Shown: piece after piece, positions 5,009 to 51,088 of the stretch
How positions within the stretch are numbered: the first letter of the stretch is position 1
Layout: each line of letters starts with the position of its first letter
Source of the DNA: a virus
DNA: 64,000 nucleotides
Virus record (IMG/VR): IMGVR_UViG_3300031857_007934
Location: 92,457-156,456 of that record
Reading direction: 5' to 3' (one strand)
Position numbers and translations under genes: made by a program
The notes under the pieces: generated by a model
Told to the model about the DNA's origin: nothing
Seen by the model: only the letters and a program-made list of their open reading frames with translations
The model's database searches: none

Positions 5009-5016
5009 TATTTATT
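5009..5016 (-). promoter_or_regulatory. Late promoter-like element AATAAATA
   Basis: The minus strand reads GAATAAATAC immediately before the small structural gene and inside the first codons-to-stop region of the upstream giant gene's end. It resembles the T4/cyanophage late promoter box and would serve the small protein and the fibre genes after it. Confidence 0.5.
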
Positions 5017-8000
5017 CGGGCAGCTTGGTTGTTCCTGCTCTCAAGAAAATTCCAATATCAGCCTGACTGGTTGATAGTGTTTCACCGGGTGCTGCCCAGG
5101 TTTTTCCTATTTTCCTAATAAAGTTTACTGTTTGCTTATTGCCAGGTACAACAGCAAGTTGTACTTGACTACTAATAATTTCTCCCGTTTCTTCATTTAC
5201 AGTGTTATTTAATGTAAATTCAGCAGGTGATACAGTATCTCCATCGGTGCTGTCTAGTGCTTGTATAGGATTAAACACAGCTATTGCTGTTTTTCTTAAT
5301 CTTCTACCTGCAACAAACACATCAAACTCGTTAACTGTTTGAGCTTTAAAGTTTAATGTCCATGTACTAGTAACTCCGTTACCCTCTTCTTTTTGTATTT
5401 GTGTAACATCTTTGTATGGAACTGTTTTTAGCATACTCTGATCGTATACGTCTGAACCAGCATCGTGTGTATCTTTTACACCTGTTCCTAGAGTACCTCT
5501 ACGAAGTTGTCTTAGTGTATTTCCTTCTTTTACAAGATACTCAATACGTTCACCGTTTACAAATATAATACCCGGTAAATTACCACCCTTGTTTGGCAAC
5601 GGTAAACTAGTTCCGTCTTCAACTTCAATTCTTAAATCATAAGAGTTTAATGGCTGTGCTAGAACTGTAGTAGGTGCGTCTAAACGCTTGTAGTGTGTTC
5701 TATTCAGCATGTCTTTAAACTGTCTAAACGCAAACTTAGGCTGAGACACCGGCGGCGTAAAGTGAATGATATCAATTGCATCATTTTGAGCAGGTCTTCT
5801 AACTAATCTAACTTTCTTTTTGTTATCAACAAGATAGTAATCAACACTAGGTGTTAATAATTCTCCATTTACGCTTACCCAAACATATTGTACATCCGCA
5901 GCAGGCTTTCTTAACTTAATTTCACCTACTGTTAATCGATTGTATGTTACATAATCAATATCTTCTGCTATCAATGTATCTCTAGCAACAACATCATAGT
6001 TTATGCGCTCTATGCCAACAAGGTCATGATTGCTAAATTTGAATACTTCTACAGTATCACCATCGTCTGGCGTTTGACCTATTGTTAAGTTAGTGCCGTT
6101 TAATTGGTATTCCCCGTCAGATATTACATATATTTCTAATGTATCACCTACATCACCAACTGCATCCGAAAGTATTACGCTACTATTAAAGATGTCAAAT
6201 CTCCATTGTGTTGGGGCAAATACTTGTGAACCATTAACATAGACATTAATATTTTCAGTAAGTAATGCATTCCCAGGTTGTTGGAAAGATTCTAAAGGAT
6301 ATTCTCTCTGTCTATTAGCGGGAATCTCGTACTGGATATTATAGCCGGGATTAAGTATTCTATTTTCAACTTTTACCATTATATTATAAGTTGTAGGTAT
6401 TGAATAGAACGGTGCTGAAGCTAATACAAACAAATTGTTAACTCCGTCTGCTACAAAAGTTTCCTTTGATACAACGCTATAATTTACAACCGTATCTGTT
6501 GAAAACAGCGTCCAGTGTATAACTGCACCTGCATCTTGCACTTCTTCAAATCTAATTACTGCATTTTCGTTTAATTCAGAAGCATACAGAATTACATGAA
6601 TTTGAATTCCGTCAACTGTAACAAATGCTGTCATTCCTTCTACATATTTTCTAGAAATTTCATAGTCAGTAGTTGAAGCATCTGCTATAATTCTACCATA
6701 GTCAACTATGTCCTGTCCGCCTCTTTCAACAGTTAAAATATTAAGTTCTACACCGTCTATAGGTGTAAGAATTGTTATTGAATTATTTTCCCAATCAATA
6801 GTATACTCTTCATTGGCTAATAATCTGTTATCCATTTTAACAAATATAGAAGGTCGAGTGCCAGGAACAACTCCTAACGAGTATGTAGTTACAGTTGCAT
6901 CCATTATGTAACTTTGACTATAAATCATTCCCTGACCTACACTATCTTTAGTATAAACTTTGATATCAACTGTGTCTAATACTTGTCCTGGTACTAATTC
7001 TTCAGGACCCTTACTTGTAGTAGGTGTTACAAATCCGTCGCCGTCAACTACAATTTCTTCAGCCCTAACTCCCTTAGCTGTAGTATAAGGTAAATCTCCA
7101 CCAGACAATGCAGTATCATAACTTTCAGGATCTGGAATAAAGCTACCATCACTAGTGTACTTTCTAACAATCAAAACGTCATTGTCGTTAGCAAAGAATC
7201 CGTATTCTCCTAGATCAATAATCTTAGTTTCACCGTCGCCTATAATACTTGGCATTCGGGCATTAGGATTATACTGCTGAGGTGTTCCAAAATTAGGATC
7301 ATCTATTCTGTCACCGTTAAGGTATATGTTATAGATCACACCGTTTTCGAGAACAGTTGATAATTCTATTACTGAAGTTGAACCGTCAAATGTAAACACA
7401 TCATCTTCAAATGTATTGTCAAACGTGTCCCAAGTATCAGTATACCATCCTTTTACGTCCCAGCCACCAGGACCACCAAAGTCAAAACTTGTTACTTCAA
7501 CGCCGCCGTAGTCAACACCATCCATTAGCTGTGCTAAGTCTTTGCCTAGCATTCCTGCTAGAGGGTTATAAGCAAAATTGATTCTATCAGATGCATTTAA
7601 CATAGACAGGGGACGCTTATATTCTATTCGTATAGCTGCATCAAGTACAGGCGGCTTAACAAATTTTAATCTACCCTGTTGTCTAGTATAACCAATGTCT
7701 TTGTTTGTTGCGTTAGAACAAGTATATGTACTTCTAAGTTGTTCTTCGTTATCGATATAAACCTTAATATTTTTTGGTTGCAAATCGATAGGCCATTCTA
7801 GGTCGTAGGTAGTTCTTATGCTTTCACCAATAAAATTTTCAGTCTGATCTAATGTGCTAATAAAGTAGTTTTTAGAAGTTCTGTCAAACTTAATTTTTAC
7901 TGTTGGAGTTCTAACTACACCGCTGCCAAGAATAGCAGAAGCAGTTGCTGGAGTTCCGGTGTCTAGTTGAGATCCTTCAATAATAACCTGAGGTGCAGTA

Positions 8001-11000
8001 ATGTAATTTTTGCCAGGATTTATTACTTTAATAGACGTAACTTTTCCATAACCTAAATATGCTTCAGCTGTAGCACCTGTTCCTCCTCCTCCAACTAAGC
8101 GAACAACAGGCTTGTATAAGAATCCGCTGCCGCCATTTTTGACCTGTATCTCTTTAACAATATAACCAACATTATCTAACCAATTTTTTCTTGGATATTC
8201 TGTTAAATTTTCGTCGTCACTGATTATTCTACTTGATACTACAATAGCATCAGTAGTAATATTCTTTCTATCTAGTTTACTATAGAATGGAGGTAAGTCA
8301 AAATCAGATACTGAACTATTCGTATTTTCAGTAGTTTCATAAGCACTTACAAATTCTCTAATAACAGTCTTGTAAGGTTTAACTTCTTCAACATATTTTC
8401 TATAACTTGGTAAAGTATCTGTGTTAAAAGTTAGGTCTTGTTCTAGCTTACCAACATTGTGTTTAATCTTAATAAAGCTAGTCTTAAAGAACCAATCAAC
8501 ATAATTCTGTTCAGTAAGAATATATCGTAAAGATGCAAAGAATAATTTGTTATATTCAACTTTTAAATTACCTACAAAAATATCGTTCTTTATTGCATTT
8601 AAAATGATTCGCAATTCCCTTGCTGAAAGATTGTCGTATGCAACACTGTCATAGTTTCTATTATCAAATCCTATAGTATTTTTTTGGAAATTATACAGAG
8701 TGTCTTTAAATTGTATAGTTCCGTTCTGTCTACCAATAGTTTTGTAATTAACAGTGTAATCTTCAGAGTCAACTGCTGCTATTTTTTCTAGAAGTAACCA
8801 ACCACCTGATCCTACATTAGCTATTCTTACAGTACTACCTAAATTTACATTTAGTTTAAAAATGTCATCAGTTACATCAATCTCATGATCTATTTTAGTA
8901 AAGGTGTTATAGCCATTAGCATACCAGTCAGCATAAGACCAATAAGCTGTTACATCATACCCTTGTATAGTAGATCTAAACCATGAACTTGTTTCATTAT
9001 TCCAAGAATAAATTGCCCATTTACCGTGTATTGATGCATCATTTTTTACCAATACACTATGTTTTCTAACAAGGATTCTAGTGTTATCATCATAACCTCT
9101 TCCTGAATTAAGAATAGTTACATCTGTAATTTGTCCTAGGTTATTAATAGTAAGCTCAAATTCAGCATCAGTTCCTGGTCCTACCAGTGTATATGTAGGT
9201 ACAATTTTATATCCTCGACCTGGATCATCTATATCAACACGAACAATGCGTCCATTTTGAATTATAGGTGTAAGAACAGCTTGAGAAATCTTGTTTGTAC
9301 TAACAAATCTTAATTCTTCAAGTGTATCAATTGTGCTGTCAAAAGTTCTATCTATTTCAGTTGGTTCGTTATCCTTTAACATCAGCGACGATGTGTTATA
9401 ACTATCTAAAATAGACTCAGTAACTAGTACAGAATTTATTCTTTCAATAACCTGCTTTAGAGCTTCTTCTCTGTTTACAAACATACTCTGTCGAGGTCTG
9501 TTTTGAACTCCGTATTTTTGTTTTACAGTTAGTTTTGTGTCAGGAATTGTTCTATTCTGTTCATCAAATCCTATCAAACTATCAAACCATTTTCGTTCAA
9601 TGTCGGGATGAATAGAACTTGATTCTAATCCTTCTGACATAATATAGTATGCACTGTGAAGCTGTTGTTCTGTGTTTTTACCAGTTGCATATTTAATATT
9701 CAATACTATATCATCGTTATAGATTAAAGAATCACAATTATTCAACAGGAATCTATCTGAACCTAAGAAGTTAACAAATCTGTAGCCTTGCTCTCGTGGC
9801 GTTGCTATTAGTCTAGCTATATCAAATACACTTAGAGATCTGTTTTCAACTTTGGGTACTGTTAATTTTCTACCTACCCAAAAATAAAATCTATTACTAA
9901 ATGTTTTAGAAACAGGATCATATACAAACTTTTGAGTGTAGAGATTATCACCGTAAATTGAAACTCCGCTTATGCCTTCGTTTAGTGCAGACTCACTATC
10001 AGCTAGTGTGTCCCACTGACTAGGAAGGAATCGACTTTCAACCCATTCATAAACATCGATAGACGATCCAGGCTGTAGCTCATTCCAATTGGCCTTTTGA
10101 TACTGTATATCTCCTTGATATGGGTATGTAAATCTTGCTGTTTTTAGATTCCACCATACTTCGCCCACATGTTCTTCGGCCCAGAAAGTATCTTTGTCAA
10201 CGCCTGTAAATACACCAACGTTGTATGTAGCAGGGTCATAAGGAACTCTATGAGTAATTTCTTGTTCTGCAGGTCCTGCTATCTTACCCTGTATAGGATC
10301 TATGTAATCTAAATAAGTTACAATTTGATTAGTTCTTTTATTATATAAGAACGCTCCTCGAATCTTTGAAACATCTACAGGAGGGACTAGTTCTCTTGTT
10401 CTGTTCCATGCAACAGCATTCTTTGTTTTACGATAGTTAAGAATTGTTCCTTTATAGTTGTCGTTGCCAACACTCTGCATACCAACGTAGATATGATTAC
10501 CATTAGATAACAAGTTTTCACCAAACTGTATTGTAGCATTATCATATCTGAACGATTCAGAATATACTAAACTATCTTCAATATCTTCAAATATATAAAC
10601 AACACCCGTATCTTTAATAACATTTTTAAATGTTGTGTAGTCTCTATCAAACGTTGTTTCGTTATTATTATCCACATCAAATGTAGTTGGTATCTTCATG
10701 TCACCGTTAAGGCTTGACACAACAAAATTATCATCGCTAAAAGCTATGCTTGAACCAAACTTTTCAGATTCCTCATTTTGCGGAGGAAGCAGAGTTTGTG
10801 CATAAGCAAATGCTCCATTAACTTGTCTGTAAACAACCACCTTACCTTGATCAGTTTTTCTTTCATCATTTTCAGGTTCAGATACAGCAATAATATTTCC
10901 TTGAGGACTTATTGACACTCTAGTTGTATTTTTACCTAACTCAATAGTTTGATCTAGAAGATATTGCTCATCTATTAATCTATAAATTACTAGATTGACT

Positions 11001-14000
11001 CTAGAAGTACTATCTGAATCAACTTCTTTTGTGAGTACTGCTATAACTGATCCGCTATCGCTAACGTCATAATCTATAGCAAACTGTTCTATATAAGTGC
11101 TTGACGGTGAATAAATTTCTTCACCATAAAACGCATTGCTTGTTCTGTTAGGCAAATATCCCAAATAATCAATATTGTTTGATACTAATTCCCACTCATT
11201 AAAGTTTAAACTAGATCCTGCAGCAATATTAGTTTTTGCTCTATATAATGAGCCGTCATAACTTACTATAGATCCTATTGAATAAGGATACGCAGTATTA
11301 AGGGCTCCTTGATAATTTTCATCCTTAGCTTGTCTCCAGCTAATTTTATTCCAGTAGATAGAATTATTAATATTAATACTATCATCAGGAGAAATATTTT
11401 TTATTGCCTTGTAATAATTGTCTCTGTTACGTACAATATCATTTTTTAGGTAACTAGATGATACTTTCCAATTGCCTTTAAAATATTCGCCAGGTTCGTA
11501 CCCGTGTTTGAAGATTTCAATTGATCCGTAATCGTCCGAAGTGTCACCAACGCTAGAAGCAAATAATGTGTACAGACCTTTGTTCTGTATTATCTTAACT
11601 TTTTGTCCAAATTTTCTATTAGTCGTTGCATATTCGCTACTTAACAGAACTAGAAGCTTATAAGAACCGTTTGCAGTTTTGTTATAAATTGCAACTGCGC
11701 CTGCACTATTAGGACCTACTGCACCAAACTCATCGCCCGGAATATTATAAACCTGCGTATAGTCCTTGTTTAAACTGTTTGGTGGATTTTCGTCTCTAGC
11801 AGCACCGTTATCAATTACTTCATTGAAGAAATAATATTCTTCGTCTGTTATATAAGGATTTGAAACTAGAGGAAAATTACTAGTATGTTGGAAAACAACT
11901 AGCTTACCAATAAGATCATTTCCTAGCACAACATCATTGTTAAAATCGTTTATTGTAGCGATGGTTCTCGAAACATCACTTGATCCACGTGCAGTAACAT
12001 TAGCAAGTCTACGTACTTCAACTCTTCCAATGTTGTTTAGTCTTGCCCAGTTACCTGTTTTATTCTTTACAAACACACGCACAAAGTTAAATTTTCGTTG
12101 ATAAAATACAACTTCAGCAGTGCTAGTTGAATAGCTAGTAAGTGCTAATCCTCCAAATTCATCAAACGGTGTTTGTATATCTTGTAAGATATCGCCTATT
12201 ACAGGCTCGTAAGGATCACCATCTGCGTTGAAGCGAGTGTATTCAAAATCAATGTATCCGTCCCAAAGATCGTAAACAGTTTGTTCTTTATTTAAAATGT
12301 CGTAGCTAAGTCCAGCTGATGCTAGATCGATAGTTCTGTTGTCTAGATCATAAAGACGAAATTCAATGTGGTCACCTGTTTCAATAGTGTCAGTATAAAC
12401 CTTTGATCCACGGACTACCCATAGATTAGATGGATATTCATCTTCTGTATCTACAAGATAGGTTCTACCAGGATCACCAAAATAAGTTAGCTGTCCAATA
12501 AAACTAGCTTGATTATTATTACTGATGTAAACACCTATTTCACTGATAGTCTTTTGTATATTATAATAGTTAAATGGTCTGCCAGGATTACCTATGTGTT
12601 CTTCAGTAACAACGTCTACATAAACTAGTCCTCTACCAATGTCATACCAGCGGCTATTATTATTGTAAGTAAAACCGTCTACATTTGACAGCTCACTAGT
12701 ATAACCTGATTCGGGTGGTTCTCCAACTCTATAGGTTTTAAATAACCAGAAACCTCCTAGATTGCTTGCAACATTATAAGTTTCTTCTTCAGAATAAAAA
12801 CCAATAAAGTCTGCGTCATCAATAAACAATTCACCAGTTAAATCAAAAGTACCGTTAGTTTCCTTAACGTAAATAACTGCACTATCACCCTTGATATCTA
12901 CATAATGAACTATGCCTGACCCGGTATTTGTTGTTACTCGCTCTCCTACCTCAGGTAGACCAACAAATGTTTCAACAAATAATATGTGATCAATCTTAGC
13001 CTGTATCTCATGTGTATTTTCAATATAAGAAGACAGTTCAGGTATCTCATTGTCAAACGGGGTATAAGGATCAAGTGTTGGATAAGCAAAACTTACTGGG
13101 TTCCATCCTAGTTTTACTAGGTCTCCAGATTTTGTACCAAGGTACATATCTAACGGAGCACGTACTAAGAAATGATCTGATATACTATTATCTAGACCAG
13201 GATTACCCGATATTAAAAGTTTAATAGCTGTAGAATCACTGTCAGCTTCGTTCACCAATTGTACATAGGTATCAAATGTTGAGAATGGCTGATTTGTTGT
13301 TGTTGGCAGAATAACTCTATTGGCTTTCCACAAACTTTCTCTGTATTTTACTATTTCATTTTTATTATAAGTCTGTGTGGGATCAAAATTACCTCTAAAT
13401 CTTGTTTTTATTTGGCTAGCATCTGGTATACCAACTGCTAAGAACTCTCCGTCAGGACTTACAGAAATACTTTCGCCAAAGTTACTATTAGTAGTATTAA
13501 AGAGATCTCTATCAGGATTAATTGCTGGTTCCTGTATTAGATTATTTGTATCCCTAGTTCTTCTATAATGATATACGACGCCGTCGCCGTCGCCAGGTGC
13601 AGAAACAAACAGATTATAATTATTATCTGTTGCTGTCATCGAAGTGCTGTATCTATGATCTGTACTGTCAAACAGTGCAGGATTAGTTAGTGCTTGTTGT
13701 ACTGCACCGTATACTGGAGAATTCTGATACACACCCCAATTATTATCTTTGTAATTATCAACCCAAACTTTTTGCTTGTCGTAGATCTGTTCTTGTATTA
13801 GATTATTCAATGCAGCTAGATTAGAAACACGTACTTGTCTTAACTTTACAAGTACAAACTTCTGATTATCAAAAGGCTCTATTTCATTTTCAACTGGTGC
13901 AACTATGTTTACTGTTGCAGCATCTAGAAAATCTACTTCATGAATACCTGTAAGATTAAATTCGGTCGCTCCTTTGACAGCAATTAATTCACCTACATTT

Positions 14001-17000
14001 AATATAGGAGCAGCCCATTTATCAAGAGTTAATTTGATTATAGGTTTGTTGTTTTCTGTAAACGTACCTAGTGCTTCTAAGGCAGTAACATTTGCAATAG
14101 CATCAGAAATTTGATAAACGGTCCACCCATCACTGTTAGTTCTAGTTAACCAAATATACTGTCCTAGCTGTAGCTGATTAATATCTGTTATTTCTAAATC
14201 ATCAATAGAGCCGGCCTTGTACTCAACATCTTCTTCGTGTACATAACCACTGCTTAATAGATAGTCGGGATCTATTGTAGTAGTTGGAAACGGCTTATGA
14301 TTGTATCCTTCAGGTTTGTCGTAAACTTCAAATGGTCTTATTCTATAGATATTATCAAACGATTCAACTGGTAACTGATCAACTAACTGTACTGGCTGCG
14401 GCGCTTCTTGGAATTTCTTTTCTTCAAGAGTGTATTCAACCTGTTGAACATTGTCAACAGCACCGTAACGACCTACTTGTATAGCCCATTCTTCGTAGAA
14501 ATCAAAACTATCTCTATCAGAACCACTTAAAGGATCAAACAATTTTGTTATTGCATTTTTTGTTCCTTTGTCTTGTATGAATCCTTGATAGAACTTATAC
14601 TGGCTGATGTCATCGTTAATGATATTAGCAAGATATTCTCTCTTCTGATAACCTATTAGATGTTGAGCTAATCTTTGCTGTTCAGCATCAAAGTTATCAG
14701 AATCTAAATCATAAAAATCAGAAAATTGATTTATCTTATAATCAAAGTTTGTATATAATTTTGGTACAGGTTTTTCATTGAGTCTATACCAAAAATTACT
14801 ATTAAACTCTTCTGATCCAGTAATTTGATATATTGCAACATAATAAAATTGCTTAAACTTTACAAGAGATCCTACGCTATAATCTTGCCAAGGTTCCCAG
14901 TCTGTTATTGTTGCATCGTCAAATATAAATCCAGGAATATCTAGGCCGCCAGTCCAGTTATCTGATCGATAACCTGTAACTTTTAATCTTTCCTGTCTAT
15001 AACCAGTAGATGGTTGATAGATTATATCATTGAACACTGTGGTATTATCTATTAATAGTACATGTTCCTTCTGAACTACAGGAATAGAAACACCGTATAT
15101 GCCATCATTAGTGTTTTTAGGTCTTACTTCAAACACATTTTTATTTCTATATATAGAAATAAACTTTCTATCTAAAGCATCGCCATCCTGCTTTACTACA
15201 CCGTAGCTGTAGAATACATCAAGAATATCATCAGCAACAGAGTAAGCTGTTGATAAATTTAGAGATGTTGCACCCGGACTTAACGATATAGTTGTTCCTG
15301 ACGCCCATCCTTGTGTAGTCCAGAATAAAAATTCTCTAGCTGCATTGTCCCAATTTTCAACAAAGTTTGTTTCGCGATTAAAATAATCAAATGTAAAACC
15401 TTGATATTTTAAATATGCATCATAACCTAATATAAAATCTACAACATCTTGCGACGTTGACAACTTAGTACCGTAGGTTAGAATTTTGTTACTTGATTTT
15501 AAGAAATTTTTCTTAAATTGTGCTCTTTTACCACCTACTATAGGAATGTCAGATAACAGAGCAAGATTATTTGTTGTAAAACTTGGTCCTGAAGTAAAAT
15601 TATCTGTTACTCTATAGTATTTGAAAGAATTGATTAACAGCTGACCTTTAACATAACGTCTATTAGCTGCCCATTCGCTTGCACTTTCAGTTATACCGCC
15701 AACTACTACAGTAACATCATTCTGTGTTGACTGAGTTTGAAAATATTTAAAATAAGGAATTTCGTTATTGTAGCCGCGAATAATAAATCCGTCAGGTGCT
15801 TTTTCAACAATTACACCACTGTATACAATCGTTTCAACAGGTGAACTTGTGTTTAAAAATACTTGGTAGTTCTCTTCAGGAACAAATACACCTTCTGATT
15901 CACTAGCTTTAGGACTTCTACTATCTAGTACAATTTTTAACTTTTGCTTATCTGTAAAACCGCCTAGTTTTAATCCTAATTGATTTCTAATAGATACTAG
16001 GTCTGTTTTATAGTCATTATAAACTGTTAAGATATTACTTGCTACAAGATTATAAATGAAATTTATTAATCCCGATGTTTGAATTCTTGAAGCGTCTTCA
16101 TAAGTATTTGGTAACTGAAGATCTGCTAATGTTAAATGCTTTTTAGTATCTTTATAAACATACTGTCCTACTAAGTTCTTATCAAGTCTAGAGGTATCAA
16201 ATCCTACGCCCATAGCTTTTGATGGCTGATTTAAAACCCATGCTCTAAGAATAGCAAACGGATACTCTGAACTTCTTCTCCAAGCGGTTTCAACAGGAGC
16301 TTCATCACCAAATTCAAAACTCTGTGTAGTATTTCTGTATACGAAATTTTTTGCAATATTAGCAGCAATAGGAGATAGCAATCTACCTTTGCTGTCAACT
16401 GGTATGAATGAAGTGAGTCCCGGTCTAGCAAACTTTTCTAAAACCCTAACCTGTTTTCCAGGCTCTCTTATAATGCCTTTCTCAATATCACCCCACATAA
16501 CACCGTTGTTACCAGTATAAGGAGCAGGTCCATAAACTTCGTTCCACCACTTTGGTTTAATAGTAAATCCTAAAATTTCCCATGGGTGACTGTGAGGACG
16601 ATCAGTATCAAATTGTTCTTTGTAAACGCCTCTCCAAAATCCAGGTAGACTAGTTCCATCAACTACGTTAGTCATGGTACTGTAGTTAAATGTAAATTGA
16701 TTTTCTCTTTCGTAAAAATAATTACTAGTGTAATCAGTCTCAACTAGGCTTAGCCACTCTACGAAAGATCCTCGTAAAGATTCGTTTATTTCGTTTCTAG
16801 TAAATTCAGTTTTTCTAAATTTGCCGGGTACAAAATCAAACAGACTTAGCGTTCCTTCACCGTAAAGAAGCTCAGTTTCTAGTGGATTATAAAAAACTTT
16901 AATATTATTGAATATTCGTTTTTCAAGATCTATTATAAGGGTATCTCTATAATCCTTAAATGCCTTAACAAAACTACCGTCGTGTCCTCGTATTACAGCA

Positions 17001-20000
17001 GTTCCTACAGGATACTCATCAAGTTCAACATTATCAGTTCCGGCTTCAATACCTGTATTAGTAGGAATATACAGTACTCTGTTATAACCTGCTAGAACTA
17101 GTTGTTTTGCTGCATTATTTGAGTCTGCGTTTTGAGCAGCTCGACGACTTGTGTATACAGGATAAAACCAACCTATTTTTGAAGTAGTCTCATCTTCACC
17201 ATAAATTTTAAATGGTCCGTTAATAACAGGTTCTTCTGATAGATAGGTATCATCTATAATAAGTTGTGGTACATAAGAAGGATATAAACCTAATTTAGTA
17301 GGTGTTGGCGGAATAAATGATCCGTCAGTAGACGAAGTTTCGTATATTCTAAGAATGTCACCTTCTTGTTGATAACTATCAAGTACTAAGAACCCTTCAT
17401 TGTTAAATGTATAGTCTTTATTGTGTACTAACTGATATCCGTTTAGGTATACATTAACTGCTCGCTGGCTTGGTACTGTTATATCAAATACTTCTGATAG
17501 TGGGTAAAACGGATTGCGAGGATCAAGGACTTCGTACTCTATAACCTTGTTATCGTTCCCCCAATTTATCATATCTGAAAAATAGAACGGTTGTGACTTA
17601 ACCTTATCTCGGTTAATTTCTTTAAGAATTAAATCAACGTGTTGTTTTATTTCACCGTCATATCCTAAAGTAGAAGCAGTTTCAATAAAGATTCTTTTAA
17701 ATCTTGCATACTCTTTTCTGCTGTAGTCCATAGCTTTAACTATGTTGTACTTCTTGTTAGTAATATGATATAAAGCAAGATTTAACGGACTACTGTGTTT
17801 TACAAACCGTTTACCGTAAACATCTAGTTCTCCAAGATCTCTTAAGTTACTAGGTCCAGGATAAGTGCCAGTAAACTCGTAAATATCTTCAATCATGCTA
17901 TCAACATGATCAATAACTTCACCTAACGTAAATGTCGATATATCTTCGTTAAGCGGATTTCTTTCTAGATTGATAGGAAAATCATACCAACCATTATCGT
18001 TCTTAGGTGTAGTAGAATCAGTCTTTAAAATAACATTAGAATTTTCTTCTAAATCATTAAAAAATCTAACAAATACTTTTTCATTTATTCTATCAAGTGT
18101 ATAATCTAGTTCTTGTTTCTTTAACTTATTATTAACAAAAACGTTTACTCGAAGATCTGTAATAAAAGCAGCCTTGTTATAAACATCAATTTGAAAATTA
18201 TTATTTTCTGCTTGGGTAGAAACGTATTGTCTAATTACCTTTTGCTTTGAAACAGTTGGTGTCTTTGACCAACCGTTAACATAATCAAAATTTGTTCTAT
18301 CAGTAAACTTTTTTAAACAGCTAGTTGACGTTGATACTGAAATAATATCTGTTTCGGTTTGATAGGTAAACGTATCTGTAAGAAGATTAAATTCAAATTC
18401 AATATCACCGCTGTTTTCAATATTTTTATAGCTTAAAGGAAATCCTAATTCTATATCATTGGCTCCATTGCCAATCTTATAACTAAAGATCTTACTACCT
18501 TTAAATGTAGTAGCATTAAAAATATTTGAATTACTTTGATTATTTCCTTCTGCATCAACTAATTCAAATAACGGCGGTTGATTTCTCTTTGTTTTTTCTT
18601 GCGCTAACATCCATCTATCGCCGTGATAATGAAATGTTTTGCCGCCATAATTATTACCGTTGATAACAAACACAGTTTCTAAATCAAGAGGTTCAGAGTC
18701 AGAAACTTCAATAAGGCTTATTTGTCTGTTATTACCTATAGTTACAAATTTTACTTGATAAATTTTTCCGTTTACTAACTTGTCTCGATCTGCTGTGAAT
18801 AAAATTCTCATTCCGTCAGCTACATCAATACCGTCAATGTTATATCCTAGACTACCTTCAATTGTTGAAAAAACATCAAGCGTGAAAGCATCTACTAAAT
18901 CAACGTCTAGTTTTGCAAATGATCCGTAATTATAGAGTTTTAAGCCTGCTTCAAATTCAATAATAGGACGTTTAGCTCTTAGATTTTCATCTATATCAAA
19001 TGGTATCTTGTTGTATTCTGCAGTTTTAATTAATACGTCCTTGTGTATCCATTTATTATATCTGCTCCAAGGATTTCTATCTCTACTAGATCTGTTAATT
19101 ACAATATAATCTTTTTCTTTTGCATAAGAAGATGAATCACTAAAGGGAAGAGTATCAAACCCCTCACTGTCAAAAGGAACATTTATATTAGCAGTATATG
19201 AAGCTGGAATAATTAAATCTTTTTCTTCAATTAATCTAATTTTATCTCCTACTCCTTCAACATACCAATTACCTTCGCTGTATATTTTAGGCACTACTGT
19301 ACCTAAAAATTCAACTTTAAGACCGTTAGTAAATTCAATACCGTTAGCACTCTTGTAGGTTTTCTTGCCTAATATTTCTGTTTCAACATCTAAGAAAGTA
19401 TTTTCTTCAATGTCATAAATTTTTATTAAACCACTAACATCAACATCATTCTTAGATATGTAATATAATTTGTCAGGAGCATTAATGGGAATAGTAAATT
19501 CAATAATTCCCTTTTCTATATACACGTTTGCAATTTCTTCTCCAGCTTCTCCTAACTTACGAATACCATCTGGATAAAGTGTAGAAACATTTTCATCGGC
19601 GTCAAAGGTTACTGAACCGCTGTCTGGTAGAATGATATAATCGCCAAGATCGTAATCATTGCCGTATAATTTTGCGTCAAAGAGACCTTCGCCTCTAACA
19701 CCTTCTCGACCTGCAACAACTACAGCGTTACCAGGAGTAAATGTTCTACTGATTGCTATAGCCATAGGATGACCAACACAATCTATGTCAAATCTATAAG
19801 TCTGTCCTCTGTATAGCTTAAGGCTTGGGTTTGACGTAAAACCGTCAGGAGAAAATAGATAAGAAACATTATCACCATTATCAGTAAGACGTACTGTATA
19901 GGTACTGATTACTTCTTTGGCCTGACCTGTAACTCTTACTGTTTTAGGTCCAGTTGGTATCCAATAATATTCTCTAAAATTAACAAACTTATCCCAATCT

Positions 20001-20407
20001 ATATTCGGGTTCCAGGCATAAGTTTCCTGACTATTAAGTCTACTGTGATTAGTTGTGTTAGCACCAAAAATCTTCAACTGATTTACGTAGTCGTTATAAT
20101 CTTTGTAGAAAGTTACATTGTCTAGATTATCTTTTATAACCAGTGCAGGTTCTAACTGGTAATTTTCTCTTGCTTTAGAAACATCACCAATGTAATTGTC
20201 TCCAGCAGCATATGCTTTAGAATTTTTTCTTCCAAAAAATCCACTAATTTTTTCTGCTACACCAGGTTGTACTAGTTGGTCTAATGTTGATTGTAAAAAC
20301 TTTTTATTTGCTTCAGTTCTAAAATATCTAGGTAGCAGATCCGAAACAGCTCTACTGTTGTTGCCTGGTACAGGCAAAGCATTTTCATTTTGAGTATGAT
20401 TAGACAT
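5012..20407 (-). CDS. Giant baseplate wedge/adhesin protein in the gp7 position (5131 aa)
   Basis: A single 15.4-kb frame follows gp6, where T4 has the 1032-aa gp7, so it is about five times the T4 length. The N-terminus has a cupredoxin-like stretch (YRGQTYRFDIDCVGHPM) near residues 185-215. CBM5/12-like aromatic modules of the pattern W..Y..G..V.Y...Y.A lie near residues 1570, 1836, 2336, 2973 and 3031. Residues about 2256-3290 carry FG-GAP-like propeller repeats such as SNFGESISVSPDGEFLAVG and SEKFGSSIAFSDDNFVVSS. Gly-rich repeats (GGGGTGATAEAYLG, NPGKNYITAPQV) follow near residues 4100-4180. It probably combines a wedge-core function with peripheral adhesin modules. Large gp7/VrlC-like proteins are known in marine T4-like phages; direct orthology is inferred from position. 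Confidence 0.85.
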   Translation of the reverse strand: MSNHTQNENALPVPGNNSRAVSDLLPRYFRTEANKKFLQSTLDQLVQPGVAEKISGFFGRKNSKAYAAGDNYIGDVSKARENYQLEPALVIKDNLDNVTFYKDYNDYVNQLKIFGANTTNHSRLNSQETYAWNPNIDWDKFVNFREYYWIPTGPKTVRVTGQAKEVISTYTVRLTDNGDNVSYLFSPDGFTSNPSLKLYRGQTYRFDIDCVGHPMAIAISRTFTPGNAVVVAGREGVRGEGLFDAKLYGNDYDLGDYIILPDSGSVTFDADENVSTLYPDGIRKLGEAGEEIANVYIEKGIIEFTIPINAPDKLYYISKNDVDVSGLIKIYDIEENTFLDVETEILGKKTYKSANGIEFTNGLKVEFLGTVVPKIYSEGNWYVEGVGDKIRLIEEKDLIIPASYTANINVPFDSEGFDTLPFSDSSSYAKEKDYIVINRSSRDRNPWSRYNKWIHKDVLIKTAEYNKIPFDIDENLRAKRPIIEFEAGLKLYNYGSFAKLDVDLVDAFTLDVFSTIEGSLGYNIDGIDVADGMRILFTADRDKLVNGKIYQVKFVTIGNNRQISLIEVSDSEPLDLETVFVINGNNYGGKTFHYHGDRWMLAQEKTKRNQPPLFELVDAEGNNQSNSNIFNATTFKGSKIFSYKIGNGANDIELGFPLSYKNIENSGDIEFEFNLLTDTFTYQTETDIISVSTSTSCLKKFTDRTNFDYVNGWSKTPTVSKQKVIRQYVSTQAENNNFQIDVYNKAAFITDLRVNVFVNNKLKKQELDYTLDRINEKVFVRFFNDLEENSNVILKTDSTTPKNDNGWYDFPINLERNPLNEDISTFTLGEVIDHVDSMIEDIYEFTGTYPGPSNLRDLGELDVYGKRFVKHSSPLNLALYHITNKKYNIVKAMDYSRKEYARFKRIFIETASTLGYDGEIKQHVDLILKEINRDKVKSQPFYFSDMINWGNDNKVIEYEVLDPRNPFYPLSEVFDITVPSQRAVNVYLNGYQLVHNKDYTFNNEGFLVLDSYQQEGDILRIYETSSTDGSFIPPTPTKLGLYPSYVPQLIIDDTYLSEEPVINGPFKIYGEDETTSKIGWFYPVYTSRRAAQNADSNNAAKQLVLAGYNRVLYIPTNTGIEAGTDNVELDEYPVGTAVIRGHDGSFVKAFKDYRDTLIIDLEKRIFNNIKVFYNPLETELLYGEGTLSLFDFVPGKFRKTEFTRNEINESLRGSFVEWLSLVETDYTSNYFYERENQFTFNYSTMTNVVDGTSLPGFWRGVYKEQFDTDRPHSHPWEILGFTIKPKWWNEVYGPAPYTGNNGVMWGDIEKGIIREPGKQVRVLEKFARPGLTSFIPVDSKGRLLSPIAANIAKNFVYRNTTQSFEFGDEAPVETAWRRSSEYPFAILRAWVLNQPSKAMGVGFDTSRLDKNLVGQYVYKDTKKHLTLADLQLPNTYEDASRIQTSGLINFIYNLVASNILTVYNDYKTDLVSIRNQLGLKLGGFTDKQKLKIVLDSRSPKASESEGVFVPEENYQVFLNTSSPVETIVYSGVIVEKAPDGFIIRGYNNEIPYFKYFQTQSTQNDVTVVVGGITESASEWAANRRYVKGQLLINSFKYYRVTDNFTSGPSFTTNNLALLSDIPIVGGKRAQFKKNFLKSSNKILTYGTKLSTSQDVVDFILGYDAYLKYQGFTFDYFNRETNFVENWDNAAREFLFWTTQGWASGTTISLSPGATSLNLSTAYSVADDILDVFYSYGVVKQDGDALDRKFISIYRNKNVFEVRPKNTNDGIYGVSIPVVQKEHVLLIDNTTVFNDIIYQPSTGYRQERLKVTGYRSDNWTGGLDIPGFIFDDATITDWEPWQDYSVGSLVKFKQFYYVAIYQITGSEEFNSNFWYRLNEKPVPKLYTNFDYKINQFSDFYDLDSDNFDAEQQRLAQHLIGYQKREYLANIINDDISQYKFYQGFIQDKGTKNAITKLFDPLSGSDRDSFDFYEEWAIQVGRYGAVDNVQQVEYTLEEKKFQEAPQPVQLVDQLPVESFDNIYRIRPFEVYDKPEGYNHKPFPTTTIDPDYLLSSGYVHEEDVEYKAGSIDDLEITDINQLQLGQYIWLTRTNSDGWTVYQISDAIANVTALEALGTFTENNKPIIKLTLDKWAAPILNVGELIAVKGATEFNLTGIHEVDFLDAATVNIVAPVENEIEPFDNQKFVLVKLRQVRVSNLAALNNLIQEQIYDKQKVWVDNYKDNNWGVYQNSPVYGAVQQALTNPALFDSTDHRYSTSMTATDNNYNLFVSAPGDGDGVVYHYRRTRDTNNLIQEPAINPDRDLFNTTNSNFGESISVSPDGEFLAVGIPDASQIKTRFRGNFDPTQTYNKNEIVKYRESLWKANRVILPTTTNQPFSTFDTYVQLVNEADSDSTAIKLLISGNPGLDNSISDHFLVRAPLDMYLGTKSGDLVKLGWNPVSFAYPTLDPYTPFDNEIPELSSYIENTHEIQAKIDHILFVETFVGLPEVGERVTTNTGSGIVHYVDIKGDSAVIYVKETNGTFDLTGELFIDDADFIGFYSEEETYNVASNLGGFWLFKTYRVGEPPESGYTSELSNVDGFTYNNNSRWYDIGRGLVYVDVVTEEHIGNPGRPFNYYNIQKTISEIGVYISNNNQASFIGQLTYFGDPGRTYLVDTEDEYPSNLWVVRGSKVYTDTIETGDHIEFRLYDLDNRTIDLASAGLSYDILNKEQTVYDLWDGYIDFEYTRFNADGDPYEPVIGDILQDIQTPFDEFGGLALTSYSTSTAEVVFYQRKFNFVRVFVKNKTGNWARLNNIGRVEVRRLANVTARGSSDVSRTIATINDFNNDVVLGNDLIGKLVVFQHTSNFPLVSNPYITDEEYYFFNEVIDNGAARDENPPNSLNKDYTQVYNIPGDEFGAVGPNSAGAVAIYNKTANGSYKLLVLLSSEYATTNRKFGQKVKIIQNKGLYTLFASSVGDTSDDYGSIEIFKHGYEPGEYFKGNWKVSSSYLKNDIVRNRDNYYKAIKNISPDDSININNSIYWNKISWRQAKDENYQGALNTAYPYSIGSIVSYDGSLYRAKTNIAAGSSLNFNEWELVSNNIDYLGYLPNRTSNAFYGEEIYSPSSTYIEQFAIDYDVSDSGSVIAVLTKEVDSDSTSRVNLVIYRLIDEQYLLDQTIELGKNTTRVSISPQGNIIAVSEPENDERKTDQGKVVVYRQVNGAFAYAQTLLPPQNEESEKFGSSIAFSDDNFVVSSLNGDMKIPTTFDVDNNNETTFDRDYTTFKNVIKDTGVVYIFEDIEDSLVYSESFRYDNATIQFGENLLSNGNHIYVGMQSVGNDNYKGTILNYRKTKNAVAWNRTRELVPPVDVSKIRGAFLYNKRTNQIVTYLDYIDPIQGKIAGPAEQEITHRVPYDPATYNVGVFTGVDKDTFWAEEHVGEVWWNLKTARFTYPYQGDIQYQKANWNELQPGSSIDVYEWVESRFLPSQWDTLADSESALNEGISGVSIYGDNLYTQKFVYDPVSKTFSNRFYFWVGRKLTVPKVENRSLSVFDIARLIATPREQGYRFVNFLGSDRFLLNNCDSLIYNDDIVLNIKYATGKNTEQQLHSAYYIMSEGLESSSIHPDIERKWFDSLIGFDEQNRTIPDTKLTVKQKYGVQNRPRQSMFVNREEALKQVIERINSVLVTESILDSYNTSSLMLKDNEPTEIDRTFDSTIDTLEELRFVSTNKISQAVLTPIIQNGRIVRVDIDDPGRGYKIVPTYTLVGPGTDAEFELTINNLGQITDVTILNSGRGYDDNTRILVRKHSVLVKNDASIHGKWAIYSWNNETSSWFRSTIQGYDVTAYWSYADWYANGYNTFTKIDHEIDVTDDIFKLNVNLGSTVRIANVGSGGWLLLEKIAAVDSEDYTVNYKTIGRQNGTIQFKDTLYNFQKNTIGFDNRNYDSVAYDNLSARELRIILNAIKNDIFVGNLKVEYNKLFFASLRYILTEQNYVDWFFKTSFIKIKHNVGKLEQDLTFNTDTLPSYRKYVEEVKPYKTVIREFVSAYETTENTNSSVSDFDLPPFYSKLDRKNITTDAIVVSSRIISDDENLTEYPRKNWLDNVGYIVKEIQVKNGGSGFLYKPVVRLVGGGGTGATAEAYLGYGKVTSIKVINPGKNYITAPQVIIEGSQLDTGTPATASAILGSGVVRTPTVKIKFDRTSKNYFISTLDQTENFIGESIRTTYDLEWPIDLQPKNIKVYIDNEEQLRSTYTCSNATNKDIGYTRQQGRLKFVKPPVLDAAIRIEYKRPLSMLNASDRINFAYNPLAGMLGKDLAQLMDGVDYGGVEVTSFDFGGPGGWDVKGWYTDTWDTFDNTFEDDVFTFDGSTSVIELSTVLENGVIYNIYLNGDRIDDPNFGTPQQYNPNARMPSIIGDGETKIIDLGEYGFFANDNDVLIVRKYTSDGSFIPDPESYDTALSGGDLPYTTAKGVRAEEIVVDGDGFVTPTTSKGPEELVPGQVLDTVDIKVYTKDSVGQGMIYSQSYIMDATVTTYSLGVVPGTRPSIFVKMDNRLLANEEYTIDWENNSITILTPIDGVELNILTVERGGQDIVDYGRIIADASTTDYEISRKYVEGMTAFVTVDGIQIHVILYASELNENAVIRFEEVQDAGAVIHWTLFSTDTVVNYSVVSKETFVADGVNNLFVLASAPFYSIPTTYNIMVKVENRILNPGYNIQYEIPANRQREYPLESFQQPGNALLTENINVYVNGSQVFAPTQWRFDIFNSSVILSDAVGDVGDTLEIYVISDGEYQLNGTNLTIGQTPDDGDTVEVFKFSNHDLVGIERINYDVVARDTLIAEDIDYVTYNRLTVGEIKLRKPAADVQYVWVSVNGELLTPSVDYYLVDNKKKVRLVRRPAQNDAIDIIHFTPPVSQPKFAFRQFKDMLNRTHYKRLDAPTTVLAQPLNSYDLRIEVEDGTSLPLPNKGGNLPGIIFVNGERIEYLVKEGNTLRQLRRGTLGTGVKDTHDAGSDVYDQSMLKTVPYKDVTQIQKEEGNGVTSTWTLNFKAQTVNEFDVFVAGRRLRKTAIAVFNPIQALDSTDGDTVSPAEFTLNNTVNEETGEIISSQVQLAVVPGNKQTVNFIRKIGKTWAAPGETLSTSQADIGIFLRAGTTKLPE

Positions 20408-49137: not shown

Positions 49138-50313
49138 ATGTCAGAACTACTAGAAAGTCGCTGGCAGGATACAAAAGCAGCACTTCTTGAAGGCCTTCAA
49201 GGCAACAAAAAGTCAGTAATGGCCACTACACTGGAAAATACCCGTAGGTATCTTGCAGAAAGTGCTACTGCTGGTGCTACTTCTGCCGGTAATGTCGCAA
49301 CACTAAACCGTGTTATCCTACCAGTCATCCGTCGTGTAATGCCAACCGTTATTGCTAACGAGTTAGTTGGTGTTCAGCCAATGACAGGACCCGTGGGTCA
49401 AATCCACACTCTACGTGTTCGCTATGCGGACACAGCAGGCTCAGGCGCTTCAGGTGCAGTTGCAGGTGAAGAAGCTCTAAGCCCATTCAAGATTGCTGAA
49501 GCCTATTCAGGCAATACTTCAACAGCTAAGGCAGACGCAACTGCTGCGCTAGAAGGTGTTGCTGGTAACAGACTAAGCATTCAAATCTTGAAGCAAACAG
49601 TTGAAGCCAAGACTCGTAAGCTCAGCGCACGTTGGACTTTCGAAGCTGCACAAGACGCACAGTCTATGCATGGCATCGACGTAGAAGCAGAAATTATGGC
49701 TGCTCTTGCTCAAGAAATTACAGCTGAAATCGACCAGGAAGTGTTAGCTTCGCTAAACACTCTAGCCGGTGCTGCTGTAGAAACATACGACCAGACTGCT
49801 GTTAGCGGTACTGCTACATTCGTTGGTGACGAGCATGCTGCACTAGCTGTTCAAATCAACCGTGCAGCAAACCTAATCGCTCAGCGTACACGTCGTGGTG
49901 CTGGTAACTACGCTGTAGTTTCACCATTTGCACTAACAATTCTACAGAGCGCAACAACATCAGCATTTGCACGTACTACAGAAGGTACGTTTGAAGCTCC
50001 AACTAACACAAAGCTAGTTGGTACTCTAAACAATGCAATGAAGGTATATGTCAACACTTATGCTGCTGACAATGCTAACGTTATCATTGGTTACAAGGGA
50101 ACTTCAGAATCTGATGCTCCAGCATTCTACTGCCCATACATTCCATTGATGAGCAGCGGTGTTGTACTAGATCCATCAACATTCGAACCAACTGTCAGCT
50201 TTATGACACGTTATGGTTATGTTGAGCTAACCAACACAGCTTCGTCACTTGGTAACGCAGCAGACTACCTAGCAACTGTTGGTATTACTTCTTCAAGCGT
50301 AAGCTTCAGATAA
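49138..50313 (+). CDS. gp23: Major capsid protein gp23
   Basis: The 391-aa HK97-fold capsid protein is shorter than T4 gp23 (521 aa). Conserved segments are RVILPVIRRVMPTVIANELV, GVQPMTGPVGQIHTLRVRY, RKLSARWTFEAAQDAQSMHG, AALAQEITAEIDQEVL and VSFMTRYGYVEL. A likely maturation cut is after Glu41 in RRYLAESATAG (L-A-E), which would remove a 41-residue propeptide. AAGGAGATAATA precedes the ATG, and a perfect stem-loop terminator follows the gene. The shortness suggests loss of the T4 insertion domain. Confidence 0.96.
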   Translation: MSELLESRWQDTKAALLEGLQGNKKSVMATTLENTRRYLAESATAGATSAGNVATLNRVILPVIRRVMPTVIANELVGVQPMTGPVGQIHTLRVRYADTAGSGASGAVAGEEALSPFKIAEAYSGNTSTAKADATAALEGVAGNRLSIQILKQTVEAKTRKLSARWTFEAAQDAQSMHGIDVEAEIMAALAQEITAEIDQEVLASLNTLAGAAVETYDQTAVSGTATFVGDEHAALAVQINRAANLIAQRTRRGAGNYAVVSPFALTILQSATTSAFARTTEGTFEAPTNTKLVGTLNNAMKVYVNTYAADNANVIIGYKGTSESDAPAFYCPYIPLMSSGVVLDPSTFEPTVSFMTRYGYVELTNTASSLGNAADYLATVGITSSSVSFR

Positions 50314-50337: not shown

Positions 50338-50367
50338 GAAATAGGGCCGAAAGGCCCTATTTCTTTG
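50338..50367 (+). terminator. Strong rho-independent terminator after gp23
   Basis: A perfect 10-bp stem AAATAGGGCC/GGCCCTATTT closes on a GAAA tetraloop and runs into TTTCTTTG. It closes the head operon and isolates the next small gene. Confidence 0.88.
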
Positions 50368-50417
50368 ACTGATGATATTTTAATGATTTTACGTATGTTT
50401 TTCCTACTATAACTGTG

Positions 50418-50423
50418 TATAAT
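50418..50423 (+). promoter_or_regulatory. Possible -10 box TATAAT before the PqqA-like gene
   Basis: GTATAATTAATAG lies 12 bases before an AGGAGG ribosome site. No convincing -35 is seen at the right spacing. It could alternatively be read as a late-type TATAATTA box. Confidence 0.45.
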
Positions 50424-50448
50424 TAATAGTGCAAAGGAGGAAAACATT

Positions 50449-50520
50449 ATGTGGACCAAACCAGTAGCAACAGAAATGCGCTATGGTTTTGAAGTTACAA
50501 TGTATATTGCTAACAGATAA
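50449..50520 (+). CDS. pqqA: PqqA-like precursor peptide for pyrroloquinoline quinone (23 aa)
   Basis: This 23-codon frame begins MWTKP and ends [11 protein letters not shown], matching bacterial PqqA in length and in its signature. Glu15 and Tyr19 stand in the E-x-x-x-Y arrangement that PqqE cross-links to build the cofactor [12 protein letters not shown] corresponds to the family R-x-G-x-E-V-T-x-Y core. The ribosome site AGGAGG is perfect and eight bases from the ATG. A promoter-like box stands upstream, and terminators flank the gene on both sides, so it is a deliberate single-gene unit. No other pqq gene is in the window, so host PqqB-E would have to process it. It is the only clearly metabolic gene seen here. 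Confidence 0.9.
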
Positions 50521-50534
50521 ACTATAGTTCTTTT

Positions 50535-50568
50535 AAAAAGCCCAACATTGTTGGGCTTTTATCTTTTA
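50535..50568 (+). terminator. Strong terminator after the PqqA-like gene
   Basis: A perfect 11-bp stem AAAAGCCCAAC/GTTGGGCTTTT with loop ATT is followed by ATCTTTT. It may work on both strands because of the A and T flanks. Confidence 0.88.
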
Positions 50569-50569
50569 T

Positions 50570-50577
50570 GATAAATA
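50570..50577 (+). promoter_or_regulatory. Late promoter-like element GATAAATA
   Basis: TGATAAATACTTTG lies right after the terminator and 67 bases before the next ATG. It is one of the best late-box matches in the window. Confidence 0.6.
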
Positions 50578-50644
50578 CTTTGTCTAAGACTTATGCAGTT
50601 ACCCACTGCGTAGACCTAGAACGTCAACATAAAGGAGAAAACAA

Positions 50645-51088
50645 ATGGGACGTCCAGTAAATAAGAAATTCTTTGGTTGGTTAGCAGACGCTGACGATAC
50701 ACGTTATGCACCAGCATCAAACGAAACTTTTTTTAACATCACAGTAAACGTAAAAGTTGCCAGCAACTCTGCTAGCGACGAAGGCTACATTTTAAGACAG
50801 CGTAGTTCAAACAAGTTTTTAGTAAACGATACTAAAGCAGGTACTAAGGTAACACCAAGCGGTTCTGGTACAGGTAACGTAGGAATTTGCACACTAGTTG
50901 ACAAAGCTGTTGGTTCTTTAGCAGCTAATGAAATGTCAATACAAGGTACTATTGTTGGTACTGGTGGTACACAGGTTCGTATTAAGAAACTATTCAATCG
51001 TACTTGTAGAGATTTCAACAACGCAAGATACAAGTGGACTATTGAGAACGACTCGACAGAAACTGTAATGCGATTAACAGCTATCTAA
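50645..51088 (+). CDS. Probable virion protein downstream of the capsid gene (147 aa)
   Basis: The sequence begins MGRPVNKKFFGWLADADDTR and is beta-rich, with FFNITVNVKVASN, GYILRQRSSNKFLVND and a C-terminal YKWTIENDSTETVMRL. It has its own late promoter and an AAAGGAGAAAAC ribosome site, which suggests high expression. Its place just after gp23 and before tail genes suits a head decoration or neck-type structural protein. I do not recognise a named family, so the role is inferred from position and expression signals. Confidence 0.72.
   Translation: MGRPVNKKFFGWLADADDTRYAPASNETFFNITVNVKVASNSASDEGYILRQRSSNKFLVNDTKAGTKVTPSGSGTGNVGICTLVDKAVGSLAANEMSIQGTIVGTGGTQVRIKKLFNRTCRDFNNARYKWTIENDSTETVMRLTAI

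Follow-up and report, generated by a model that had tools for sequence, protein, structure and literature searches.

Viral genes for PqqA, the precursor peptide of pyrroloquinoline quinone (PQQ), have been reported before. According to the sections of the report covered here, a representative of the Lake Baikal virus population VP_266 (2020), likewise a virus of methylotrophs, encodes PqqA, taken as an auxiliary metabolic gene, and also methanol dehydrogenase (PMC7678222). Viral contigs from reservoir sediment list pqqA, pqqE and pqqD among their auxiliary genes, there under phosphate solubilization and with several pqq genes named; pqqD, not pqqA, is named among the virus-encoded genes confirmed by metatranscriptomics, and the parts of that report covered hold no operator or gene anatomy, unlike the present analysis (PMC13188868). 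In the text reached by a term look-up, PQQ appears only as a medium supplement in one methylophage paper (PMC9004378) and is absent from another (PMC10580990). The genes described below differ from VP_266 in that PqqA occurs without a PQQ_2 dehydrogenase in this record and the 40 others searched, in many phage types and with a host-type operator. Viral PqqA is already known as a kind, and what we did not find reported in the open-access literature is its spread across cultured methylophages and the operator that they share with bacteria.

On the bacterial side, multi-copy pqqA is known in the Methylophilaceae (PMC4109929) and five copies occur in the strain of PMC9851590. As far as the covered parts of these two papers go, most of the several genes lie apart from the single pqqBCDE set. 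In the present analysis, these chromosomal lone copies have an upstream dyad in common with many phage pqqA genes. Genomes of the Methylophilus methylotrophus family that are at least 90% complete encode pqqA in all 121 cases listed, 118 of them with two or more copies and some with up to 12; Methylophilales bacterium LSUCC0135, for example, has 12 copies in a genome of ~2.1 Mb. Adjoining pqqB-E genes are usual but not required for a PqqA, because none is seen in the stretch covered for 97 of the 120 listed bacterial loci that carry a pqqA of this kind. The bacterial set was fetched by pattern and is, by title, mostly but not wholly Methylophilaceae.

The window analysed here is a stretch of 64,000 nucleotides that covers positions 92457-156456 of a possibly incomplete viral record, 156,456 bases in length. 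An ATG-started open reading frame of 23 codons at 50449-50520 (plus strand) encodes a 23-residue PqqA precursor peptide that exceeds the cut-offs of both family models: PF08042 with 32 bits against a gathering score of 21.1 (E 1.2e-7; profile positions 1-19 of 19) and TIGR02107 of NCBIfam with 35 bits (E 9.1e-9; cut-off 20; full profile). None of 14 control genomes matched the PF08042 model, and PHROGs assigned no family to the peptide. The initial annotation had recognized a PqqA by length and signature, and the two curated cut-offs bear it out, as does the translated frame, in which Glu15 and Tyr19, the Glu-x-x-x-Tyr pair joined by PqqE, stand where it had placed them. The peptide is like the family in length, in its whole-profile match, in this pair and in its basic C-terminus. 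It differs in being phage-encoded and without adjoining pqqB-E, and its cross-linking by PqqD/PqqE is predicted. Searches with tblastn confirm that the window holds no pqqB-E, and found none in the rest of the record either, save one weak radical-SAM match. The latter was considered as a maturase of the record's own and rejected: it is a radical-SAM protein that scores 29.3 against the 381-bit PqqE cut-off.

The gene directly upstream, at 49138-50313 (plus strand), encodes the major capsid protein gp23 (PF07068, E 5.5e-98; phrog_138), which agrees with the position first assigned to pqqA. Two hairpins enclose the small gene, as described earlier, and both are real: neither fold was equalled by any of 200 shuffles. 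The first (50338-50363, plus strand) lies inside a fold that spans 46 bases at -21.2 kcal/mol (z -5.5); for the second (50536-50560, plus strand), the fold is 48 bases long at -15.9 kcal/mol (z -4.9). A terminator consensus scan lists the second on the plus strand and the first on the minus strand only; the plus-strand T-run of the first is partly within the stem. Given that 60 of 69 gp23 relatives with enough sequence share a terminator-like hairpin after gp23, the first hairpin belongs to gp23, and the second closes the pqqA cassette. The ribosome-binding site noted earlier, AAAGGAGG, is a strong one and lies at 50433-50440 (plus strand), and such sites are common before viral pqqA. The promoter-like box proves to be more than was first described: a bacterial-type, operator-like dyad (50380-50396) and TATAAT (50418-50423), a candidate -10, are present on the plus strand, but a plain sigma-70 consensus scan gives no plus-strand promoter before pqqA. 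TATAAT alone is not enriched before the genes of this viral record. A T4-type late promoter, TATAAATA, was also tried and rejected, as it occurs twice before the 156 genes of the record against 2.9 expected, which is no enrichment. Together, these features support the reading of 50449-50520 as a phage gene for the PqqA precursor, in a transcription unit of its own after gp23 and dependent on host pqqB-E. A freshwater-2 RNA (Rfam RF02980, 55.7 bits, cut-off 49.9) lies at 50569-50647, 3' of the pqqA terminator, and ends at the ATG of the following gene; it is present too in 5 of the 15 gp23-relative loci scanned.

Phage-borne pqqA extends well beyond this record. Searched with the peptide by tblastn, 50,697 phage records gave 12 matches. 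Nine cultured Methylophilales/Methylophilaceae phages encode pqqA (Venkman EXVC282S, four Melnitz phages, P19250A, MEP301, MEP401 and MEP402), as does the podovirus genome ctXG6705, from a spring. The taxonomy holds 18 Methylophilales/Methylophilaceae phage names: these nine, and nine more that came up in no sequence search. Two matches named Acinetobacter phage MD-2021a were left out of the phage count; one of them, CAKLQF020000010.1, is a bacterial contig that resembles a chromosome (pqqB-E, fur, ppk). In the phage records examined, pqqA is unannotated or lies beneath a hypothetical protein on the opposite strand, so the earlier remark that it is easily missed by gene callers was apt. The opposing frames in Melnitz (L004:4961-5056) and ctXG6705 (L002:2067-2195) are probably miscalls.

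Among uncultivated viruses, an IUPAC pattern that fixes W2, K4, P5, G13, E15, V16, T17 and Y19, nearly fixes R11, and fixes the second base in codons 14 and 18 retrieved at least 120 IMG/VR contigs with an intact pqqA. The viral, genome and gp23 samples obtained by such scans are non-random, and their counts are lower bounds. None of the 120 pqqA-bearing viral loci listed (each 1.1-14.8 kb) contains pqqB, C, D or E. In 106 of these 120 loci, one or more proteins (E 1e-5 or better) are shared with the phages compared, and the best protein matches of the 106 fall on seven phage types, many by a single shared protein. A narrower, phage-like pattern applied to genome contigs gave at least 120 matches, mostly with Methylophilaceae titles; among the matches listed, the remainder come from Burkholderiales, other beta- and gammaproteobacterial bins and a few other bins. 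Upstream of the viral genes, a Shine-Dalgarno-like site precedes 117 of the 120 listed, compared with 212 of 2400 control positions. Downstream, a terminator-like hairpin follows 37 of 118 assessable genes, compared with 11 of 600 random windows. In 34 of the 104 cases with called genes on each side, pqqA stands between two genes that both run the other way. Based on this arrangement and the frequent 3' terminator-like hairpins, many viral pqqA genes likely have their own promoter.

Counts of short words in front of viral and bacterial pqqA genes point to what such promoters may have in common. Among the standouts were TAATGATT and AATCATGA, which belong to one dyad, CTCATGA-N3-TCATGAG. Dyads were counted in upstreams made non-redundant at 80%, which left 99 of the 116 viral and 116 of the 127 bacterial sequences with 200 bases. 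A bacterial matrix scored at least 8.4 bits in 107 of the 116 bacterial upstreams versus 10 of 1560 control windows, a flattering figure because the matrix was trained on the upstreams that it then scored. Its use on phages is independent, and here 53 of 99 viral upstreams reached the same score, versus 10 of 1381 control windows and 5 of 495 shuffled sequences. The isolates score 19.9 (Melnitz), 19.3 (ctXG6705), 19.0 (Venkman), 12.7 (P19250A) and 10.8 (MEP301). A viral matrix reached 12 bits or more in 72 of the 99 viral upstreams, most of which had trained it, versus 6 of 1380 controls.

The dyad of the window, TTAATGA-TTT-TACGTAT, is a phage form of the bacterial pqqA dyad. It scores 8.4 bits on the bacterial matrix, a value that 10 of 1381 controls (0.7%) reach, and 18.9 bits on a viral matrix whose training set excluded both the window and its gp23 relatives, a value that none of 1380 controls matches. 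The record has no second copy of the exact string TTAATGATTWT. A second place with a high viral-matrix score (18.7 bits) lies at L006:10408 on the minus strand and has no gene assigned. Among the matches listed, bacteria whose PqqA is nearest to the window's have a dyad of at least 20 bits in 13 of 15 non-redundant upstreams.

Phage and bacterial versions differ in spacing. In bacteria, a -10-like hexamer lies mostly 61 or 62 bases past the start of the dyad (59 and 34 hits in 101 upstreams), whereas the phage peak spans 38-44, with maxima at 38-39 and 41-44 and a smaller peak at 60-61; these offsets follow loose hexamer rules, by which one upstream may count at several offsets. In the window the candidate -10 has an offset of 38 bases from the dyad start, a spacing more frequent than any other single one upstream of phage pqqA. 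This would place the dyad centre near -65 in bacteria and near -42 in the window. Positions of ~-65 and ~-42 are the two classical activator positions of promoter geometry.

Across 10 bacterial genomes the strict dyad occurs 20 times, compared with no occurrence of the reversed pattern. Fourteen of these sites are upstream of pqqA and two are upstream of a pqqB-like gene (G001 and G045). In G001 its product is a beta-lactamase-fold protein by Pfam, and in both genomes a PqqE match lies close downstream. One further site precedes a MarR gene and one a glycine-zipper protein, and the remaining two are without assignment. The MarR gene behind the L354 dyad was tried as the regulator and found no support: the 300 bases upstream of its homologues hold a dyad (at least 12 bits) in 1 of 30 cases, an undercount given that minus-strand loci were not turned, and a dyad is found anywhere in only 5 of the 30 loci.

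The phage gene is best explained, and in our judgement probably correctly, as a phage-borne, host-regulated extra copy of bacterial pqqA that feeds the host's PqqB-E. All of the carbon and nitrogen of PQQ comes from one glutamate and one tyrosine of PqqA, and one whole peptide is spent per PQQ. Peptide supply could thus limit PQQ, and the Methylophilaceae, hosts of the cultured pqqA-phages, keep several lone copies of the gene. The phage product would be a genuine substrate of host PqqD/PqqE, which would join Glu15 to Tyr19, and the remaining host enzymes would complete the cofactor. As a self-contained unit with host-type operator, -10 box, ribosome site and terminator, the cassette may keep or raise PQQ during infection. 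Methanol dehydrogenase and other periplasmic dehydrogenases would then retain their cofactor, so that respiration could continue while the phage replicates. In keeping with supply of the stoichiometric precursor, cell-free Gluconobacter extract given PqqA yielded PQQ at 70-80% conversion, as summarized in the covered part of PMC9851590. Counter to this, the same part of that paper states that the rise in PQQ from pqqABCDE overexpression was limited in Methylovorus, which speaks against simple substrate limitation. Also against the supply reading, no PQQ_2-type dehydrogenase (PF13360) was found in the record or in 40 gp23-relative or pqqA-bearing viral records, and the dyad is absent upstream of pqqA in MEP402.

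A broader proposal is that several unrelated lineages of phages infecting methylotrophic and neighbouring betaproteobacteria each took the precursor gene along with the PQQ control site of their hosts. A putative host regulator would bind the TCATGA-type dyad before pqqA copies and some pqqB operons, the phage copies of the dyad would sit closer to the -10, and supplying peptide in step with host demand would be a general strategy, carried by what is perhaps one of the smallest metabolic genes of phages. We consider this proposal evenly balanced between true and false. If the supply reading holds, viruses of one-carbon-eating bacteria commonly act on PQQ supply via a gene whose shortness led the annotations examined to overlook it or to call the other strand. 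Methanol oxidation starts with methanol dehydrogenases, whose cofactor is PQQ, so infection could alter methanol turnover in water. The same reading would give a way into the question of why a Methylophilaceae genome retains as many as 12 pqqA copies, and the dyad could serve as bait for the regulator of their PQQ synthesis.

Alternatively, the peptide could be a decoy that competes for PqqD/PqqE, or a poor substrate, so that PQQ falls and host metabolism is starved or rerouted. Titration of PqqD/PqqE had been offered from the outset as the other option. With no pqqB-E in the record, the peptide must meet the host's PqqD/PqqE, and a small peptide made in abundance could tie these up. One marine survey, in the part covered, describes a PqqA-annotated host peptide family co-expressed with two defence systems (PMC11118758), which makes a role in conflict between phage and host conceivable. 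Evidence from the reactive residues argues the other way. The proposed test was whether related phages conserve the Glu and Tyr codons, and targeted scans found no true changed variant beside at least 120 intact genes. A scan for a changed residue 15, covering codons without an initial G, returned two stretches of 8-9 bits on the PqqA profile whose frames overrun both ends of PqqA, as expected of chance. The corresponding scan for residue 19, covering codons without an initial T, returned no variants. Variants that bind but do not react are thus absent from these scans and the core is kept, which therefore favours a substrate over a dead decoy. The operator, often of the same kind as before bacterial pqqA, would likewise suit co-production. 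We consider a decoy unlikely.

We give the same low standing to passive cargo, by which a short host cassette with its promoter is often acquired and then kept without benefit in spacers such as the one after gp23. That spacer is indeed variable. Among the best 80 of 600 stretches matching gp23, pqqA follows gp23 immediately in three (L294, L295 and L326), and in two pqqA contigs with head genes in common with this phage (L096 and L133) it is also directly 3' of gp23; the short frames sought after gp23 in relatives thus exist. In L294 and L295, which are the same contigs as L080 and L086, the cassette is inverted. Only 1 of 19 gp23-relative records longer than 20 kb (from the best 80 of 600) has pqqA, so the gene is accessory in this lineage. 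Beyond the gp23 terminator, some of the 15 loci scanned carry freshwater-2, glutamine-riboswitch or manA RNAs (Rfam), and the gap looks like a spot for small regulated inserts. What speaks against mere cargo is selection. Conservation was judged on the codons left free by the search pattern and by the separate scans. In 107 distinct viral sequences, pN/pS is 0.32 on the free codons and 0.15 on six core codons, which shows purifying selection on viral pqqA. The ribosome site and operator are kept as well, each of 22 positive records has a single copy, and the gene recurs in the nine cultured methylophages, which are of several unrelated types.

As side observations on this spacer, the glutamine riboswitch lies just after gp23 at L258:5234-5281 and L326:5234-5281, and the manA RNA at L310:5613-5818. 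In L080, ~250 GC-rich, structured-looking bases with a terminator-like end of their own separate pqqA from the next structural gene; L294, from the same contig, has no Rfam match at the gathering score.

It is highly improbable, in our view, that the gene has a phage role unrelated to PQQ, as a virion part, a signal or a transcript acting as RNA. The thought arises because pqqA follows a capsid gene here and a 23-residue peptide could do other things, but other phage types have pqqA in different gene neighbourhoods, and the peptide is conserved despite wide variation at synonymous positions. A chance open frame resembling PqqA, conceivable at a length of only 23 codons, can be dismissed: the match has an E value of 1e-7 to 1e-8 over the whole profile, comes with a ribosome site and flanking terminators, and is already refuted by conservation, since relatives have this gene at the equivalent position.

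Concerning the virus itself, pqqA is a host-type metabolic gene within a true phage genome, with gp23 and a prohead protease beside it. Its gp23 is ~65-70% identical to those of the jumbo T4-like phages Phosso, Vibrio 2.275, PA5oct and CBB (the best matches listed). The label 'marine' given at first is not established for the record. No tRNAs were found in the window or in the rest of the record. The expectation that the host has pqqB-E stands at the level of the family that includes most known pqqA-phage hosts, where pqqA is universal in the listed genomes and PqqE exceeds its cut-off in 140 of 150 genomes, whatever their completeness, but the record's own host may belong elsewhere. The type of PqqA suggests a betaproteobacterium, Methylophilaceae or a neighbour. 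Among the matches listed, the 15 nearest bacterial PqqA sequences share 20 of 23 residues and come from 13 loci. Only one of these (L184, Methylotenera) is titled Methylophilaceae and the rest are Burkholderiales and unclassified beta- or other proteobacterial bins, so a host outside the Methylophilaceae is quite possible. IscU was tried as a second guide to the host and rejected as non-discriminating: its identity is mostly 78-84% to IscU of the Methylophilus family and reaches 85% in other members of the class.

Beyond pqqA, the record encodes IscU (TIGR01999 over cut-off; L006:18077-18472) and a 4Fe-4S ferredoxin (L006:11429-11776), both phage genes, as well as DnaJ and a fatty acid desaturase. 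One run of genes in L009/L010 (G000:C1:63593-84914) combines six radical-SAM proteins that exceed the NF033640 (twitch family) cut-off with further radical-SAM proteins. Within the window, an open frame of 5131 codons (5012-20407, minus strand) lies among large minus-strand genes.
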